Assembly (NCBI RefSeq): GCF_002214385.1
Contig: NZ_CP014855.1
Span: 186,001-250,000 of the forward strand
Source of the DNA: Thermococcus gorgonarius
Lineage (GTDB): Archaea; Methanobacteriota_B; Thermococci; Thermococcales; Thermococcaceae
Reading direction: 5' to 3'
DNA length: 64,000 nucleotides
How positions within the stretch are numbered: the first letter of the stretch is position 1; every line of letters starts with the position of its first letter. A program made the translations under genes and the position numbers. The notes under the pieces are model-generated. The model saw only the letters and a program-made list of their open reading frames with translations. It did not search any database and had not been told where the DNA came from. Positions 10,751 through 59,846 of the stretch are shown in pieces.

Positions 10751-11962
10751 TCAAAAAGAGCTTTGTCTTCTATGATTCTTTTTTCTTCCCCACCTTTGTC
10801 GGTACTCTCTTTCAAGCTCTTCGTTCCTGAACGGGTCTCTGTAGGATGGGATTAAATCTGTGCTTATCTTTGACTTCCTGACCTCTACTCCTGCCTGTTT
10901 GGCTATGTATCTGAATCTTCTAAATTCTCCTGGCTGGAGAAGGGTTACTGCTTTGCCTTTTTTCCCCATTCTTCCAGTTCGTCCTATCCTGTGGATATAC
11001 TGTTCTGAGTTCATTGGAATGGAGTAGTTAATAACGTGGGTGATTCCAGTTACGTCTAGACCTCTGGCGGCAACGTCAGTAGCGACCAGTATCTTGGTTC
11101 TTCCCTCTTTGAACCTTCTAAACGTCCTTTCTCTGGCCGCTTGGCTCATGTCCCCGTTAAGGGCCTCTGCTTGATAACCATCTCCCCTCAGTCTGCTTTC
11201 AAGTTCCCTGGTTTCTCTCTTGGTCTGGCAGAAGATTATCCCGTAGAAATCTTCCTTAAGAATTTCCTTCAGTACTCTGTACTTTCTTCCCCTGGGTACT
11301 TCCACGTATTCCTGCTCAACTTCCCCTGGAACAAGCTCATCTCTGCTTACTATGACTATCTCCGGATCCTTCATGTATTTCTTGGCTAGAAGAAGAACGT
11401 CCATCGGCATAGTGGCCGAGAACATGAGCGTTTTCTTTTCTTCGGGTAGTTCTTTGAAGATGGCTTCGATGTCCTCCTGAAAGCCCATATCGAGCATTCT
11501 GTCCGCCTCGTCAAGGACAAAAAACTTCACATCGTCCAGTTTAAGAGTACCGCGTCTTATATGGTCAAGTATTCTCCCTGGAGTGCCGACGATGACGTGA
11601 ACTCCTTTGCTGAGGGCCTTTATCTGTGGCCCTATTGGCTGGCCTCCATAAATAGCATAAACGTAAATCCTCTTCTCTCCCCGGAGACTTTTGATTTCAT
11701 CCGCGACTTGGAGGGCAAGTTCTCTGGTAGGCGTGATTATCATTGCCTGAACGGATTTAACTTTTGGATCAACGGTCTCGATTATGGGGAGGGCAAAGGC
11801 GGCAGTTTTTCCGGTTCCAGTCTGGGATTGGCCTATTAAATCCCTCTTCCCGGACATCAGAAGGGGTATAACTTCCCTTTGAATGTCCGTTGGTTTGCTA
11901 AAACCTTTTTTCCTAACCGCCACTAACGTGGCCTCGGATAAACCTAATTTTTCAAAACTCAT
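10751..11962 (-). CDS. DEAD-box ATP-dependent RNA helicase
   Basis: A 403-residue helicase with the full set of motifs: Q-motif region (SKPTDIQREVIP), motif I GQSQTGTGKTAAFALP, Ia PTRELALQV, II VLDEADRMLD, III SATMP, V VATDVAARGLDV and VI YIHRIGRTGRMG. It should unwind structured RNA using ATP and in hyperthermophiles of this group may act in ribosome assembly or RNA decay. The ATG at 11962 gives the normal start MSFEKLGLSE; the ORF can extend 11 codons upstream. The tail (WGRKKNHRRQSSF) is basic. It lies between tRNA genes. Confidence 0.95.
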   Translation of the reverse strand: MSFEKLGLSEATLVAVRKKGFSKPTDIQREVIPLLMSGKRDLIGQSQTGTGKTAAFALPIIETVDPKVKSVQAMIITPTRELALQVADEIKSLRGEKRIYVYAIYGGQPIGPQIKALSKGVHVIVGTPGRILDHIRRGTLKLDDVKFFVLDEADRMLDMGFQEDIEAIFKELPEEKKTLMFSATMPMDVLLLAKKYMKDPEIVIVSRDELVPGEVEQEYVEVPRGRKYRVLKEILKEDFYGIIFCQTKRETRELESRLRGDGYQAEALNGDMSQAARERTFRRFKEGRTKILVATDVAARGLDVTGITHVINYSIPMNSEQYIHRIGRTGRMGKKGKAVTLLQPGEFRRFRYIAKQAGVEVRKSKISTDLIPSYRDPFRNEELEREYRQRWGRKKNHRRQSSF

Positions 11963-32977: not shown

Positions 32978-33706
32978 ATGGGAGTGGAAAAGGTTCCGAA
33001 GTATGACATCCCGACCAAGAAGGTCGACTACGTTTTTATCGAGCTCGACAAGATGAAGCCCCACGAGCAGCTCGTCCAGAAGGAGCTTGAAGCCTTCATC
33101 GAGAGCGTTACTGGAAGCGGTATCTTCTGGAAGCCGATGCTCCTCGCGAAGGTTCCGGGCGAGGACATGTACCTCATCGTTGACGGCCACCACCGCTGGG
33201 CGGGTTTGCAGAAGCTTGGAGCGAAGAGGGCCCCGTCAGTCATACTCGACTACTTCAGTGACGACGTCAAAGTTTACACCTGGTACCCGGCCTTCAAGGG
33301 AGACCTCAACGAGGTCATTGAGAGGCTCAAGGCTGAGGGCCTTGAGGTCATCGAAGATCTGGAGGCCGAGGAGAAGGCCGAGAGGGGAGAGATAGCCTTC
33401 GCCCTCGTCGGCGAGAAGAGCTTCGCCATTCCTGGCGGCCTTGACGAGCAGAAGAAGGTAAGTAAGGTTCTTGACGAGATGAGCGTTGAAGGAAGGATAG
33501 AGCTCATCTACTATGGCCTCAAGGAAGACGCCAGGGAGGACATGGCCAAGGGCGAGATTGACTACGTCTTCATCAGGAAGGCCCCGACCAAGGAGGAAGT
33601 TATGGAGCTCGTCAAGCGCGGTGAAGTTTACTCTCCGAAGACCACCAGGCACGTCCTTCCCTTCAACCCGGACAAGATTGACGTCAAGCTTGAAGAACTG
33701 TTCTGA
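32978..33706 (+). CDS. serK: ADP-dependent L-serine kinase (ParB/Srx fold)
   Basis: A 242-residue protein matching the Thermococcus kodakarensis serine kinase SerK, which phosphorylates free L-serine with ADP to give O-phosphoserine for cysteine synthesis and serine catabolism. The ParB-like nuclease fold is seen in VDGHHRWAGLQKLGAKRAP, and E30 in KMKPHE corresponds to the reported catalytic glutamate. Earlier annotation would call it a ParB-like chromosome protein. The ATG at 32978 is preceded by GGAGGGTTGAGA. A hairpin lies in its leader. Confidence 0.93.
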   Translation: MGVEKVPKYDIPTKKVDYVFIELDKMKPHEQLVQKELEAFIESVTGSGIFWKPMLLAKVPGEDMYLIVDGHHRWAGLQKLGAKRAPSVILDYFSDDVKVYTWYPAFKGDLNEVIERLKAEGLEVIEDLEAEEKAERGEIAFALVGEKSFAIPGGLDEQKKVSKVLDEMSVEGRIELIYYGLKEDAREDMAKGEIDYVFIRKAPTKEEVMELVKRGEVYSPKTTRHVLPFNPDKIDVKLEELF

Positions 33707-33742
33707 AGGTTTTTAACCTCTCCACCTTTCATTCTTCACCCG

Positions 33743-33791
33743 ATGACGAAGGATTAACCGGCTGAACCGTGATGACATCGGCCTTGTCTGA
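33743..33791 (+). ncRNA. C/D box sRNA (2'-O-methylation guide)
   Basis: The order is ATGACGA (C, 33743-33749, one change from RTGATGA), a 12-base guide, CTGA (D', 33762-33765), ACC, GTGATGA (C', 33769-33775), a 12-base guide and CTGA (D, 33788-33791). Both guides have the ideal archaeal spacing. The guides AGGATTAACCGG and CATCGGCCTTGT should pair with rRNA or tRNA; the first would pair with CCGGTTAATCCT, similar to a conserved 23S rRNA segment from memory. It lies in the serK to DUF835 gap; the mature ends are estimated at a few bases either side. Confidence 0.8.
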
Positions 33792-33881
33792 GGGTGCTTT
33801 ATTTTTTCTACACAGACACTTACACAACCACCTGCAAAAAAGGCCTTTAAATTTTCGGGCGTTTAGACTTATGGTGGGAAA

Positions 33882-53885: not shown

Positions 53886-54917
53886 ATGGGCAAGTACGAT
53901 GAACTGTTTGCGCGGATCAAAATCGCCGCGAAGGACGTTGATAGGGTTATCCTTGACCTGATTCCGGAGAAAGAGCCCAAGAACCTTTACGATGCCGCCA
54001 GACATTACCCTCTCGCCGGCGGAAAGCGTGTAAGGCCCTTTGTTGTTCTCCGTGCGGCTGAAGCAGTTGGCGGTGACCCTGAGAAAGCCCTTTATCCAGC
54101 TGCCTCGGTTGAGCTAATCCACAACTACTCCCTCGTCCACGACGACATAATGGACATGGACGAGCTCAGGAGAGGAAGGCCGACCGTCCACAAGCTATGG
54201 GGAGTTAACATGGCAATCCTTGCCGGCGACCTCCTCTTCAGCAAGGCCTTCGAGGCGATAGCGAAGGCCGACGTTTCCCCGGAGAAGAAGGCCAGAATTC
54301 TGGACGTCCTCGTCAGGACTTCCAACATGCTCTGCGAGGGACAAGCTTTGGACATAGAGTTCGAGACGAGGGAAGAGGTGGGCGTTGACGAGTACCTCAG
54401 GATGATAAGCGGAAAGACCGGTGCACTGTTCCAGGGCTCGGCTGAAATAGGGGCCATAGTCGGAACCGATAACGAGGAGTACATTCAGGCTCTGTCAAAG
54501 TGGGGCATGAACGTCGGCATAGCCTTCCAGATATGGGACGATGTTTTAGACCTCATAGCGGATGAGGAGAAGCTGGGCAAGCCCGTCGGCAGCGACATAA
54601 GGAAGGGCAAGAAGACCCTCATCGTGAGCCACTTCTTCGACCACGCGAGCGAAGAAGATAAGGCCGAGTTTCTTAAGGTCTTTGGAAAGTACGCCGGCGA
54701 TGTCAAGGGTGATGCGCTCATACACGACGAGAAGGTGAAAGAAGAAGTTGCCAAGGCCATTGAGCTCCTCAAGAAGTACGGGAGCATTGACTATGCCGCT
54801 CAGTACGCCAAGAACCTCGTAAAAGAAGCAAACGAAGCTTTGAAAGTCCTCCCGGAGAGTGAGGCGAGGAAGGATCTGGAGCTTCTCGCGGAGTTCTTAG
54901 TGGAGAGGGAGTTCTGA
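53886..54917 (+). CDS. idsA: Short-chain (geranylgeranyl) isoprenyl diphosphate synthase
   Basis: A 343-residue trans-prenyltransferase that builds geranylgeranyl diphosphate for archaeal lipids. First Asp-rich motif DDIMDMD (from residue 86) and second DDVLDLIADEEKLGKPVG are complete; AGGKRVRPFVVL binds diphosphate. The residues ahead of the first motif (HNYSLVHDDIMD) are consistent with C15-C20 products, but chain length cannot be fixed by eye. The ATG follows GGGGTGATAGG. It ends the isoprenoid neighbourhood. Confidence 0.94.
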   Translation: MGKYDELFARIKIAAKDVDRVILDLIPEKEPKNLYDAARHYPLAGGKRVRPFVVLRAAEAVGGDPEKALYPAASVELIHNYSLVHDDIMDMDELRRGRPTVHKLWGVNMAILAGDLLFSKAFEAIAKADVSPEKKARILDVLVRTSNMLCEGQALDIEFETREEVGVDEYLRMISGKTGALFQGSAEIGAIVGTDNEEYIQALSKWGMNVGIAFQIWDDVLDLIADEEKLGKPVGSDIRKGKKTLIVSHFFDHASEEDKAEFLKVFGKYAGDVKGDALIHDEKVKEEVAKAIELLKKYGSIDYAAQYAKNLVKEANEALKVLPESEARKDLELLAEFLVEREF

Positions 54918-55006
54918 ATCTTATCCCTCTTTTCCTGCCACAATCCAGCCTACCGGCGGATGCTCCGCACCGGATCGAAAATTTTATACATTCTCACTTC
55001 CAATTA

Positions 55007-56146
55007 ATGTCTCAGGGATACCCAATGGATATTCCATGGATTGTCTCCACTGTGAACATATTGAATATTGTAAGTGACGTAAGGGCATTTAAACAGTGAC
55101 TTTTAGACTTTCATGGAATTGACGTGGAAACGGATAGGAAAAAGGCCTCAGAGATTATACTAGGATACAAGTTTTTCTTTGATACTGCTTTTAGGGAACT
55201 TTTAGAAGATTTAGCACACGTAGAGGAATTTGGTGAGGCAGACATTGTTCTTCAAAGAGCCACATTTAAAGGTATATCCATAGAAGACCTTCCAAACTCA
55301 TGTGAAAAAATATTGCTATTGAAGAACCTTTGGTACAAATATTTTGAAAAAGTCTTAACTGCGCGAAGCTGGAGAGACCTAGAAAAACGACTTGACGTGT
55401 TAAGAACACGAGTATTGTCAAAATTCCTCAAACTATTTCAGTGCTGGATAGTTCCCGAGAAAAATCATTCATTAGAGGAGTTATATAAAGTTTGGAGTAT
55501 TAACGGCGCTTTAGTATGGTTTACTGACACTGGAAAAGGAGGTCCTAAGCCATATTATTATGGCTTACTGCCAATAAGGAAAGAGTACTATGGCAACAAC
55601 AGTTATTTCATGGATACGGTATTCAGAGGATATGCATATACTTTACAGTTTCTCTGGTATTCACTATTAGGAAAGGACTCTTTTAAGAAAGTGCCTCACT
55701 TGGATAAAATGCATATTGCAGAGGAGATATTTTATGACGACTGCAGAGAATTATTGGCACTGTGGAATCTTGGTGGATCTTCTGAGGAGGGCTCTAAAAC
55801 TTATTTAAAATGGAAGTGTTTAGATAGGTTTTTTGGAATCCTACAGGAACATGTTGTTGAGAAGATCGAAGAACAATATGGTGTTTCTTTTGGAATATCC
55901 GACTATAAGTTATTCCAATTAAATCCAAACTGCTCGCAGAAAGAGTTCCTGGCTGGATTGTATTCTGACAAAGTTCCAGAGCCTTCATACATTAAAGCTA
56001 AATCCTCTCCTGAAGAGTGGCAGAAATGGCTAGACCTCAAGTTTTTGTGGTATCCCTTTGAAGTACTGGACACCTTTGGTACTAGAGTGTTTAATGGTGC
56101 AATTGCATTTGTGTACATCCTGACAGGAATGCTAGAATATAGATAA
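55007..56146 (+). pseudogene. Unknown AT-rich gene with in-frame TGA near the start
   Basis: An ATG at 55007 lies about 20 bases after a TATA box (ATTTTATACA, 54980-54989). Its frame reads MSQGYPMDIPWIVSTVNILN to RAFKQ, hits TGA at 55097-55099, and continues without change of frame as LLDFHGIDVETDRKKASEII to a TAA at 56144. The codons across the TGA read like one protein. A GTG at 55124 could start a 340-residue product, but has no clear ribosome site. The protein is rich in Trp, Tyr and Phe, without membrane spans. No family is recognised. Base composition is clearly more AT-rich than both neighbours. Confidence 0.68.
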
Positions 56147-56173
56147 AGTCAGGGAATCTTTGACCCGATTAGA

Positions 56174-56936
56174 GTGTTAAGAATAAAACATCCTGAAGAT
56201 GTAGGGAATGTTATATCCTATGCAGTCCTTGTTGAAGTTTCAAGCTTCATTGCAGACTACTCTGGTTGGATAGTTTTCTATCAAGTGGGCACTGATTTTT
56301 CAGGGATGGGAGGATTTTTACACAACTTAGCAGAGAGTGTCATTGAAAAATACCAAGACTCTCTCATTGTCGAAGAAATAACCGTTGATGGAGAGATTTT
56401 CGAGCAGTATCTAACTAGAAACCACTCTGATAAATTCCCAGAGGACCTCCAATTTCAGTTTGAGAAGCTCAGTCGAGATATTATCAAATATCAAGGGGAT
56501 ATAACTTCACTTGAACGATTACTAAGCATTCATAGGGGAGTTTTTTCAGAACTTTTAACTTATTATTTATTGTCCTCCAATAGATTGCATAGATCTTGGG
56601 AAAAAGTTGATTGGAATGTTCCCGTCGGCGGTGAACAAATTGATGTATTCGCAATTGACGCAGAAGGACATCCATGGATATTTGAGTGTAAGTTTGATGT
56701 ACACAAAGAAGATTTTCCACAAGATTTTAAATCAGGTATCTCGAAAACGTAAGGCAGTACTTGAAAAATACAAGAAAGATCCTACTGTCATGGTGGTTTA
56801 TGTACGAAACAGACACAAGTACCAAATCAATACTCTAGAAGAGCATGGAATTCATGTTCTAGTTCTAGAACCACTTCTCAAAAAATTACTAGAAAGCAAA
56901 GATTTGGATACACTAAAAGAAATACTAAAGGAATAA
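56174..56936 (+). pseudogene. PD-(D/E)XK-like nuclease gene, frameshifted
   Basis: A GTG at 56174 (no ribosome site) opens 192 codons ending at TAA 56750; the frame +1 continues SRKRKAVLEKYKKDPTVMVV to 56936. A single extra base around 56722-56736 (TTTT or AAA run) explains the break; corrected, the product has about 253 residues. The core GGEQIDVFAIDAEGHPWIFE followed by CK has the spacing of PD-(D/E)XK restriction-like nucleases (Asp, Glu-x-Lys). The frame is the same as the gene upstream, separated only by the TAA at 56144, so both may once have been one protein of about 640 residues. Confidence 0.66.
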
Positions 56937-56942
56937 AAATCC

Positions 56943-59846
56943 TCACTCCACAAACACCGCGGGCTTCAGTGGCATGGCCTGCCTCTTCTTTCCTCCCTTG
57001 TCCTCCGCGGCGTTGATGATTATCTCCAGGCCGAGTTCTTTCTCCATGAAGTCCTTCGCCTCTCTCAGCGCTTTCTCCTCGTTGATGCGCTTCACTTCAA
57101 AGGCGCGCTCCTTGATGAGCCTCTGGATGAGCTTGCTTACCTCCTTGCCGTGCTTCCTCATCTCCGGGTCCTTCATCAGCTCGGCCATAGCTGACTTGAA
57201 GTCCTTCTTTTCTGCAACAACTTCAACTACCTTCCACTTCCACTCTGGAGCAGTGTAGATGTAGGCCCTCTTGGCGTCTTCGAGCTTGGCAACCCTTATT
57301 ATCTCCTTGATGTCCTCGATGACGGACTGGACGAACTGCTCTTCAGCCTCTACCGTCTCGTTCCACCACTCCTCAACGGGTTCGGGCCACTTTGCTAAGC
57401 TCACGAAGCCCTCCCCTCCGAGCTTCTCCCAGAGTTCTTCGCTTATGTGGGGTGTGAAGGGCGCCATGAGCCTGACCCAGACCTCGGCGAGCTTTCTAAG
57501 CATGTAGCGCTTCGCCTCGTCGTCTCTGCCTTCTGTTCTCCTTAGGTACCAGCGCAGGTCGTTCAGAACCGTGTAGAACGCCCACTGCACTGCCGTCCTC
57601 GTCCTGAACTCCTCGAGGGCCTTTGTTGTTTCTTCGATGGCCTTGTTCAGGCGGTGGAGCATCCAGCGGTCGATGTCCCTGAGCTCAACCCCCTCTCTGG
57701 CCTCATAGCCCGCGAACTCGCTTACGAGCTCGTAGAACCTCTCAACCTGCCTGCGGAGCTTTCCGACCTCCTTCCTGCGCCAGTCGAAGTCGCTGTCGTG
57801 CTCGGCAAGGCCCATTATGTAGAGCCTCACGACATCTGCCCCGTTCTCCTCGATGGCATCGATGAAGTTCAGCACGTTGCCCTTGCTCTTGCTCATCTTC
57901 TGGCCTTCGAGGGTTCCGAAGCCGTTTACCGCTATGCCCTTCGGCCAGTGTTCCCTCTTGAATATCGCCACGTGGTTGAATATGAAGAACGTCAGGTGGT
58001 TCGGGATGAGGTCCTTGGCGGAACAGCGCCAGTCGAGCGGGTACCAGTACTCGAACTCCTCCTTCATCTCGTGGATTATCTCCGCTGGAATTCCGGTCTT
58101 CTCGGCGAGTTTTCTCTCCTTCTCTTCGCTGAATTCCTCGCGGAAGATGTAGTCAAAGAACTCCCTGTCGAGCTTCTCTGGGTCGAGTTTACCCTCTTTC
58201 ATGAGCTGGTTGATGTGCCTGCTTATCGTGTAGTAGGCCATGTAGATTGTTGAGTCGCTCAGGCTCTCGATGACCCAGTCAGGGTCCCATGGTAGGGGAG
58301 TTCCCAAACCAACTTTTCTGGCGCAGGCCTTCTTGTCGAGCCAGTCTATTACCGCCTCGAACTGGGCGCGCCTGCTCTCTGGGAGTATCTTCATGTTGGC
58401 CAGGGCCTCCTTCGCCTTGGCCTTCCATTCGGGGTTGCCGTAGTCTATGAACCACTGGTCGTGGATTATCTTGATTACCGCTCTGTTCCCGAAACGGCTT
58501 ATGACGGGTTTATCGGCGAACTCGTACATTATCTCGGCAATTCCCTTCTCCTGGAGCTCCTTCGCTATGATATCTTTTACCTCCTGGACTGGTTTGCCCG
58601 CGTAGGGCTCTACCTTGAAGATTCCCTTATGATACTCTGCCTTGTAAATGTTCTTAGTCGCTTCTTCAAGCTTCTCCTTGTCCTTCTGGCTCTTGACTCC
58701 GAGCCTCTCGGCCTCTTCAACTGCCGGGAACTCACCGTAGCCTTCAAGTTTGATCAGCGAGATGTAGCTTATCTCCTCAACAACGCGCGGGTCAATGTCG
58801 TATTTAAGGAGTATCTCAGTCTCCTTCTTCAGGTCTTCCAGAGCGATGTGGTCGAAGGGGGCATGGGCTGGGACGCTCATGACAACGCCGGTAGCGTTGT
58901 CCGGGTCAACGAACTCCGCTGGCAGAATTATGACCTCGTCGCCCGTTACCGGGTTCTTCACGTACTTTCCGATGAGCCTCTCGCCCTTGAACTCCTCGAT
59001 TACCTCTATCTCCCTGTCCTGGAAGGAGAGCTTGTAGGCGGCCTCCTTGCTGACTATCCAGGTTTCCTCTTTTCCGTTGCACCTGACCTTCGCCTTGACG
59101 TAGGTAGCGTTGGGGTTCAGCCACATGTTTGTGACGCCGTAGACTGTCTCGGGCCTCAGCGTTGCCGCGGGCAGGTAAATAACCTCGCCGTCCTCCTCGA
59201 GGATGAACTTGATTATGACGTACTCCAGAATCTGGATGTCCTCACCTTCCATGATGTCGTGGTCTCCCAACGGCGTCCCAACAACGGGGTCCCAGCGAAC
59301 CCTGTGTGCACCTTTAACCACCAGCCCCATGTCCTTGAGCGTCCAGAACTGCCACTCGATGAACTTGCTGAAGGGCGGGAACAGGCTTGTGGTGTGGAAC
59401 TCCCTCGTCCAGTCAACGCTAAAACCTGCCCTGATGAACGTCTCCTTCGCGGCCTTCATGAAGTACTTCACTATTTCCTTCGGGTCTTCGAACTTCCAGA
59501 GGATTTCCTCGGGGACTTTGTAGACGTCGCGGTAGATGTGGATGGTCTTCGGGTCGCGGTTCTTTATTCTCTCGGCGATGCCAACTATCGGCGCGCCGGT
59601 GATGTGCCACGCCATCGGGAAGAGCACGTTGTAGCCCTGCATTCTCTTAAAGCGCGCTATTACGTCCGGAATCGTGTAGGTTCTCGCGTGGCCGACGTGG
59701 AGGTGGCCCGAGAGGTATGGAAACGCGACGGTTATGTAGAACTTCTTCTCCTTGGGCTTCGCGTTCCTGTCGGGCTCGAAAATCCTCGCCTCCATCCAGC
59801 GCTTCTGCCACTTCTCCTCAATGGCCTTGAAGTCGAGCTCAGCCAT
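56943..59846 (-). CDS. leuS: Leucyl-tRNA synthetase (archaeal type)
   Basis: A 967-residue class I synthetase. HIGH signature: PYLSGHLHVGHARTYTIPDV; KMSKS equivalent: GQKMSKSKGNVLNF. The large editing domain (CP1) spans roughly residues 170-470 with TLRPETVYGVTNMWLNP. The archaeal C-terminal extension is present. GGAGGTTTTAGCC precedes the ATG. It borders the AT-rich locus, whose last gene converges with it at seven bases. Confidence 0.97.
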   Translation of the reverse strand: MAELDFKAIEEKWQKRWMEARIFEPDRNAKPKEKKFYITVAFPYLSGHLHVGHARTYTIPDVIARFKRMQGYNVLFPMAWHITGAPIVGIAERIKNRDPKTIHIYRDVYKVPEEILWKFEDPKEIVKYFMKAAKETFIRAGFSVDWTREFHTTSLFPPFSKFIEWQFWTLKDMGLVVKGAHRVRWDPVVGTPLGDHDIMEGEDIQILEYVIIKFILEEDGEVIYLPAATLRPETVYGVTNMWLNPNATYVKAKVRCNGKEETWIVSKEAAYKLSFQDREIEVIEEFKGERLIGKYVKNPVTGDEVIILPAEFVDPDNATGVVMSVPAHAPFDHIALEDLKKETEILLKYDIDPRVVEEISYISLIKLEGYGEFPAVEEAERLGVKSQKDKEKLEEATKNIYKAEYHKGIFKVEPYAGKPVQEVKDIIAKELQEKGIAEIMYEFADKPVISRFGNRAVIKIIHDQWFIDYGNPEWKAKAKEALANMKILPESRRAQFEAVIDWLDKKACARKVGLGTPLPWDPDWVIESLSDSTIYMAYYTISRHINQLMKEGKLDPEKLDREFFDYIFREEFSEEKERKLAEKTGIPAEIIHEMKEEFEYWYPLDWRCSAKDLIPNHLTFFIFNHVAIFKREHWPKGIAVNGFGTLEGQKMSKSKGNVLNFIDAIEENGADVVRLYIMGLAEHDSDFDWRRKEVGKLRRQVERFYELVSEFAGYEAREGVELRDIDRWMLHRLNKAIEETTKALEEFRTRTAVQWAFYTVLNDLRWYLRRTEGRDDEAKRYMLRKLAEVWVRLMAPFTPHISEELWEKLGGEGFVSLAKWPEPVEEWWNETVEAEEQFVQSVIEDIKEIIRVAKLEDAKRAYIYTAPEWKWKVVEVVAEKKDFKSAMAELMKDPEMRKHGKEVSKLIQRLIKERAFEVKRINEEKALREAKDFMEKELGLEIIINAAEDKGGKKRQAMPLKPAVFVE

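Follow-up and report, generated by a model that had tools for sequence, protein, structure and literature searches.

A decaying, acquired gene for a nuclease-like protein in Thermococcus gorgonarius, with a possible role in defence against mobile elements

Between the convergent genes idsA and leuS of Thermococcus gorgonarius lies an AT-rich segment that is almost certainly an acquired pseudogene. We identified it in a stretch of 64,000 nucleotides (hereafter, the window; contig NZ_CP014855.1, positions 186,001 to 250,000). It appears to be the recently wrecked remnant of a single, horizontally acquired gene, whose product belongs to an archaeal protein family that has not been described. That the family as a whole is a horizontally spread single-gene nuclease, probably a defence against mobile elements, and caught here in decay, we regard as about an even call.

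Results

A broken gene at a site of variable content

The idsA-to-leuS spacing in the window is 2.0 kb, and the GC content over positions 55000-56999 is 0.36-0.39 (about 37%), as against 0.52-0.58 on both flanks, which bears out the remark of a first-pass annotation that this interval is richer in A+T than its neighbours. A single frame can be read from 55007 or 55025 as far as a frameshift, barring two in-frame stops (Table 1). The family profile crosses both stops (E = 1.7e-259), and the tail is matched in the next frame (E = 3.2e-10). Homology comparison puts the frame change, a shift by one, at about 56706-56730: the match to the family stops at 56719 in the first frame and starts at 56703-56706 in the next, so that the two overlap over about 56706-56719. 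The first-pass annotation had listed these lesions as TGA at 55097, TAA at 56144 and a frameshift near 56730, correctly within a few bases, and had read them as a gene failing in this genome, which the three lesions and the profile match uphold. The stop codon of the pseudogene is 6 bp from that of leuS. Because the putative active-site residues (E, D and ExK) are retained in this copy, its decay looks recent.

Table 1. Features of the window discussed in the text, with positions counted from its first nucleotide
Feature	Position	Strand	Comment
serK-like gene, left flank of the empty site in the window genome	32978..33703	+	nuclease gene follows serK in G018 and G029
C/D box RNA sR14, directly 3' of serK in the window genome	33739..33793	+	RF01145, 49 bits, cut-off 38
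idsA, left flank of convergent pair	53886..54917	+	pair kept across the genus
TATA-like TTTTATAC, 5' of the pseudogene	54982..54989	+	candidate, read from the sequence
Pseudogene, nuclease-like protein of ~640-660 aa	55025..56936	+	aligned over the full stretch to two single intact ORFs; a further in-frame ATG lies at 55007
N-terminal region, ~375 aa, mostly helical (low-confidence model)	55025..56143	+	no recognised family; Haloarcula N-terminus homologous
Lesion 1, in-frame TGA	55097..55099	+	sense codon in intact relatives
Lesion 2, in-frame TAA	56144..56146	+	sense codon in intact relatives
Middle region, alternating strands and helices (low-confidence models)	56168..56410	+	motifs SYA-L and GW--F--V--DF kept in Haloarcula relative
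PD-(D/E)XK-like nuclease domain	56510..56936	+	DUF234 and Card1 profile matches; motif residues kept
Putative active site	E 56549-56551, D 56642-56644, E 56684-56686, K 56690-56692	+	D-to-ExK spacing of 14 residues
Lesion 3, frameshift by one	56706..56730	+	homology switches frame
leuS, right flank	56943..59846	-	pair kept across the genus

Could the gene be intact in the organism, and its lesions be errors of sequencing or assembly? Short A/T runs occur close to the frameshift, and some assemblies do contain such errors. We nevertheless consider this very unlikely, as two independent stop substitutions and a frameshift fall within 1.9 kb between intact flanking genes, in a single-contig genome of 99.98% completeness.

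The convergent idsA-leuS pair is retained in 43 of the 44 genomes compared, at distances of 1.3-10.6 kb; in the last one it seems to wrap around the contig end. The genes between the two vary from species to species, and by eye we take them to include an MFS-type transporter, an M20-type peptidase, a methyltransferase and others. For instance, the closest relative of the window genome (G026) has a peptidase and a methyltransferase there instead. The comparison of this junction across the genus, as the first-pass annotation had proposed, thus found an adjacent pair with variable contents, and not two housekeeping genes at the site in all Thermococcales. Across the 44 genomes, the junction (window 54918-56942) has the look of a genus-wide spot of gene turnover, with unrelated genes coming and going. 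The flanks of the window copy carry no target duplication or flanking repeats, only short chance repeats.

Intact relatives are single genes

A search of 94 genomes of the family with the first 340-codon open piece returned relatives in only two others, both of the same genus (hereafter, G018 and G029). The gene family is therefore carried by three of the 94 genomes, the window genome included. Both relatives are intact: the G018 protein has 656 aa and is 48% identical to the window copy over a long stretch (E = 5.6e-99), and the G029 protein has 662 aa and is 43% identical (also over a long stretch, E = 3.7e-95). The two are 65% identical to each other, with a dN of 0.245 between their genes and saturated synonymous sites, as expected of a pair under purifying selection. 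GC content is 0.36-0.38 in all three copies.

Because both relatives are single unbroken ORFs, the window region is one gene, and the two-gene option that the first-pass annotation had left standing is excluded. Its other proposal, a single large protein that ends in a PD-(D/E)XK-like core, agrees with these ORFs and with the DUF234 and Card1 matches described below. Two separate housekeeping genes conserved between idsA and leuS are so improbable that we reject them: nothing was found in favour of such a reading, the sequence is absent from 91 of the 94 genomes, its relatives are single ORFs and the content of the site varies. Neither intact copy has a partner gene, each being the sole insert between serK and the RNA gene sR14, and no CRISPR genes or mobile-element genes adjoin them.

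A nuclease domain behind a long part with no family match

The C-terminal part of the protein has the succession of residues typical of PD-(D/E)XK nucleases (a helix E, then D, then (D/E)-x-K), and its motifs RG-L-EL, GEEID and ECK are invariant in the G018 and G029 proteins and in a more distant relative from Haloarcula (see below). The Pfam family DUF234 (PF03008) is matched weakly by three sequences (E = 0.0016, 0.0036 and 0.035), with scores of 14.9, 19.3 and 18.1 bits that all fall under the Pfam gathering cut-off of 22.5 bits. Profile-profile comparison of the C-terminal part with the DUF234 domains of Thermococcus ATPases gives an E-value of 4.3e-9, against 0.2-0.9 for column-shuffled controls. 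Moreover, the top match in the PDB is the nuclease domain of Card1; the match is weak (E = 0.027) and spans about 50 residues, with D...ExK aligned in register and the same spacing of 14 residues from D to ExK in Card1 and in the window-family proteins. Two single-sequence models (pLDDT 41) give the order H-E-E-E in the nuclease part, where the superfamily has an alpha-beta-beta-beta-alpha-beta core, but at a confidence too low to trust. Judged by motifs and profiles, the C-terminal domain is very probably a nuclease domain of the PD-(D/E)XK type, and the intact protein is predicted to be catalytically active.

The ~450 aa that precede this domain have no match in Pfam, NCBIfam, PADLOC, PHROGs or the PDB. 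A search with the whole protein gave no match in the PDB, PHROGs, PADLOC and NCBIfam yielded no usable match, and no PADLOC model matched the G018, G029 or Haloarcula proteins. No CARF family was matched in Pfam or PADLOC; a CARF fold recognisable by structure alone may remain. There was likewise no match to an ATPase family, and the G018 and G029 sequences contain no Walker A motif, GxxxxGK(S/T).

Two intact copies at one chromosomal spot

In G018 and G029 the intact gene lies exactly between the C/D RNA sR14 and a gene that we take to be serK, a name that, like idsA, was assigned by inspection of the sequence and not drawn from a family search. An sR14 motif follows serK by 38-74 nt in 28 of 29 other genomes compared, and by ~2.1 kb in G018 and G029; the window genome's own junction is unoccupied (window 32978-33793). 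By pattern, the empty form is present in 41 of the 94 genomes and in two genera, and for this reason we take it to be ancestral and the occupied form derived. Insertion at one site, with empty alleles elsewhere, thus holds for the G018 and G029 copies and is false for the window copy. The first-pass annotation had called the gene acquired, and the low GC content, the presence in so few genomes, the differing locations and the empty junction in nearly all genomes compared all agree with it.

A tree of idsA, leuS and serK pairs G018 with G020 (support 1.0) and joins G029 to G023, G027 and G069 in one clade (support 0.996). The carriers are thus non-sister species, and all four of their tree neighbours have the empty form. 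In both occupied alleles serK ends in TTT TAA, whereas the empty alleles end in TTC TGA (28) or TTC TAA (1). Since non-sister carriers share both the spot and the serK end, either the gene entered twice or one old occupied allele was spread by recombination. The two copies are 34% identical at four-fold sites, compared with 45-46% for idsA and serK; because these sites are nearly saturated, the copies were not recently exchanged.

Several observations concern the junction itself. The TTT TAA ends of serK (L007:9596-9640 and L008:9464-9500) look as if rebuilt by the insert. In G018, the sR14 directly 3' of the nuclease gene was recognised by motif only, and the Rfam match to sR14 (L007:12712-12766) lies ~1 kb past the sR14-like motif at 11691, which suggests two such RNAs nearby. 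One genome (G034, locus L064) has no sR14 motif after serK, and in another serK is seemingly split into two overlapping frames (G028:C1:1672948-1673672), suggesting a frameshift or a sequencing error.

The exact repetition of the site makes a selfish homing-type gene the main rival to defence. Its nuclease would cut the empty serK-sR14 junction, or some other target, and repair would copy the gene in without an integrase; the copy in the window would then have strayed to another site and decayed there. Such a gene would account for an insert that consists of a single nuclease gene, for the identical position, in non-sister species, of the two copies that alone are intact in the genus, for the lack of other cargo at that spot in 28 of 29 genomes, for serK ends unlike those of all empty alleles, and for an ancestral empty form that spans two genera. 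We still find it doubtful, given that the window copy sits at an unrelated site without direct repeats while the serK-sR14 junction of the window genome is neither cut nor occupied, that two insertions are few, that homologous recombination of a single old occupied allele would also explain the common junction, and that homing nucleases are usually smaller than 660 aa. A related proposal, that this is a so far undescribed family of large archaeal PD-(D/E)XK proteins whose genes move singly, without an integrase, into a precise target where the 3' end of serK adjoins sR14 and rebuild the end of serK, as homing-like or defence nucleases with a novel architecture, also seems unlikely to us. Neither an integrase nor terminal repeats were found with the gene.

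A distant relative on a haloarchaeal plasmid

In a tblastn search of plasmids, the G029 protein matched pHMA133 of Haloarcula marismortui (E = 1e-4). The protein encoded there, WP_011222360.1, has 614 aa, is annotated as a hypothetical protein, and is about 21-25% identical to its Thermococcus relatives. The match spans its full length with an hhalign E-value of 3.8e-11, where controls made by shuffling and reversal give 0.25-0.98, and the N-terminal part also matches by itself (E = 4.5e-6). Motifs common to the Haloarcula and Thermococcus proteins run through all parts: GY--F, IP-SSE, GY--TLQYLW, SYA-L, GW--F--V--DF, RG-L-EL, GEEID and ECK. The plasmid neighbours of this gene include a PIN/AbrB pair, a HEPN protein and an Mrr-like nuclease, and defence-like neighbours were found only at this one distant locus. 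The search for intact relatives and their neighbours that had been proposed at the outset yielded the two intact copies at serK-sR14 and a plasmid relative in defence-like surroundings. Near the Haloarcula gene, a protein at L019:10135-11247 matches Mrr_cat weakly (E = 0.0055) and the PADLOC model Aga_REase-TIR (E = 9.2e-9).

Wider searches revealed no relative in the plasmid collection beyond two records of one Haloarcula plasmid, none in 50,697 phage records and none in scans of IMG/VR viral contigs. Contig-scan matches at three loci (L004-L006) were rejected as chance, a string EEWQKWLD in acetyltransferase and phosphoglycerate-mutase-like proteins. In tblastn, the G018 protein also weakly matches a Priestia megaterium plasmid, at a place that has no annotation (NZ_CP045273.1:76245-76535; 35% over 95 aa, E = 0.1).

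These searches bear on a further alternative, namely that the nuclease served a plasmid or virus in its own replication, recombination or packaging and was stranded in chromosomes. An AT-rich, sporadic gene with a plasmid-borne distant relative is what such an origin would leave, but its near absence from the phage, viral and plasmid collections, and the lack of element genes beside the intact chromosomal copies, make it rather unlikely.

Discussion

The gene is probably either an anti-virus or a selfish DNA-cutting gene. Of the roles considered, defence is the likeliest, judged by the analogy of sensor-nuclease effectors and by the PIN/AbrB pair, HEPN protein and Mrr-like nuclease that lie near the Haloarcula relative; a role in defence has roughly the same chance of being right as of being wrong. 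The first-pass annotation had spoken of an acquired, failing gene of defence or of a mobile element, with a nuclease-like core. Acquisition, failure and core stand, and the role can be stated only as a likelihood: neither a PADLOC match nor a partner gene, integrase or terminal repeats came to light.

Under the defence reading, the intact protein would most likely work on its own as a metal-dependent nuclease. The ~450 residues at its N-terminus would serve both to recognise some trigger or target and to restrain the C-terminal PD-(D/E)XK domain, and so control the nuclease. That domain would cleave the DNA or RNA of invaders, and the gene would thus be a one-gene system against mobile elements.

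The analysis adds an unannotated family, found in Thermococcus and on a haloarchaeal plasmid, that combines a familiar nuclease core with a ~450-residue part that has no match in the protein libraries searched. It also offers a clean example of a single gene that takes up precisely the same chromosomal position in two species that are not sisters. With the good genetics available in Thermococcus, both the defence and the homing readings are directly testable.

Comparison with known systems

DUF234, the C-terminal domain of archaeal ATPases, has a core in which E is followed by GEEID and then by E-x-K, as in the window family. In DUF234 proteins an ATPase domain comes first, whereas the window family has ~450 aa of unknown sequence in that place and scores under the cut-off. 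The Haloarcula protein is alike over its full length, with shared motifs in its N-terminal, middle and nuclease parts, and differs in its low identity and in being plasmid-borne. PD-(D/E)XK homing endonucleases are a further candidate for comparison. They resemble the family in that a single nuclease gene occupies one precise site in non-sister species; the family differs in lying outside any intron, intein or coding sequence, in having a third copy elsewhere and in encoding a much larger protein.

Enzymes of the Card1/Can2 type are PD-ExK nucleases that depend on metal and are switched on by cA4 (PMC7969007). Like these CARF-PD-ExK proteins (DUF1887), the window family joins an N-terminal, sensor-like part to a C-terminal nuclease with D...14 residues...ExK in register; unlike in them, no CARF domain was detected and no CRISPR genes were seen beside the intact copies, and the match between the two is weak and short. 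The family is a new architecture within the known PD-(D/E)XK nuclease superfamily.
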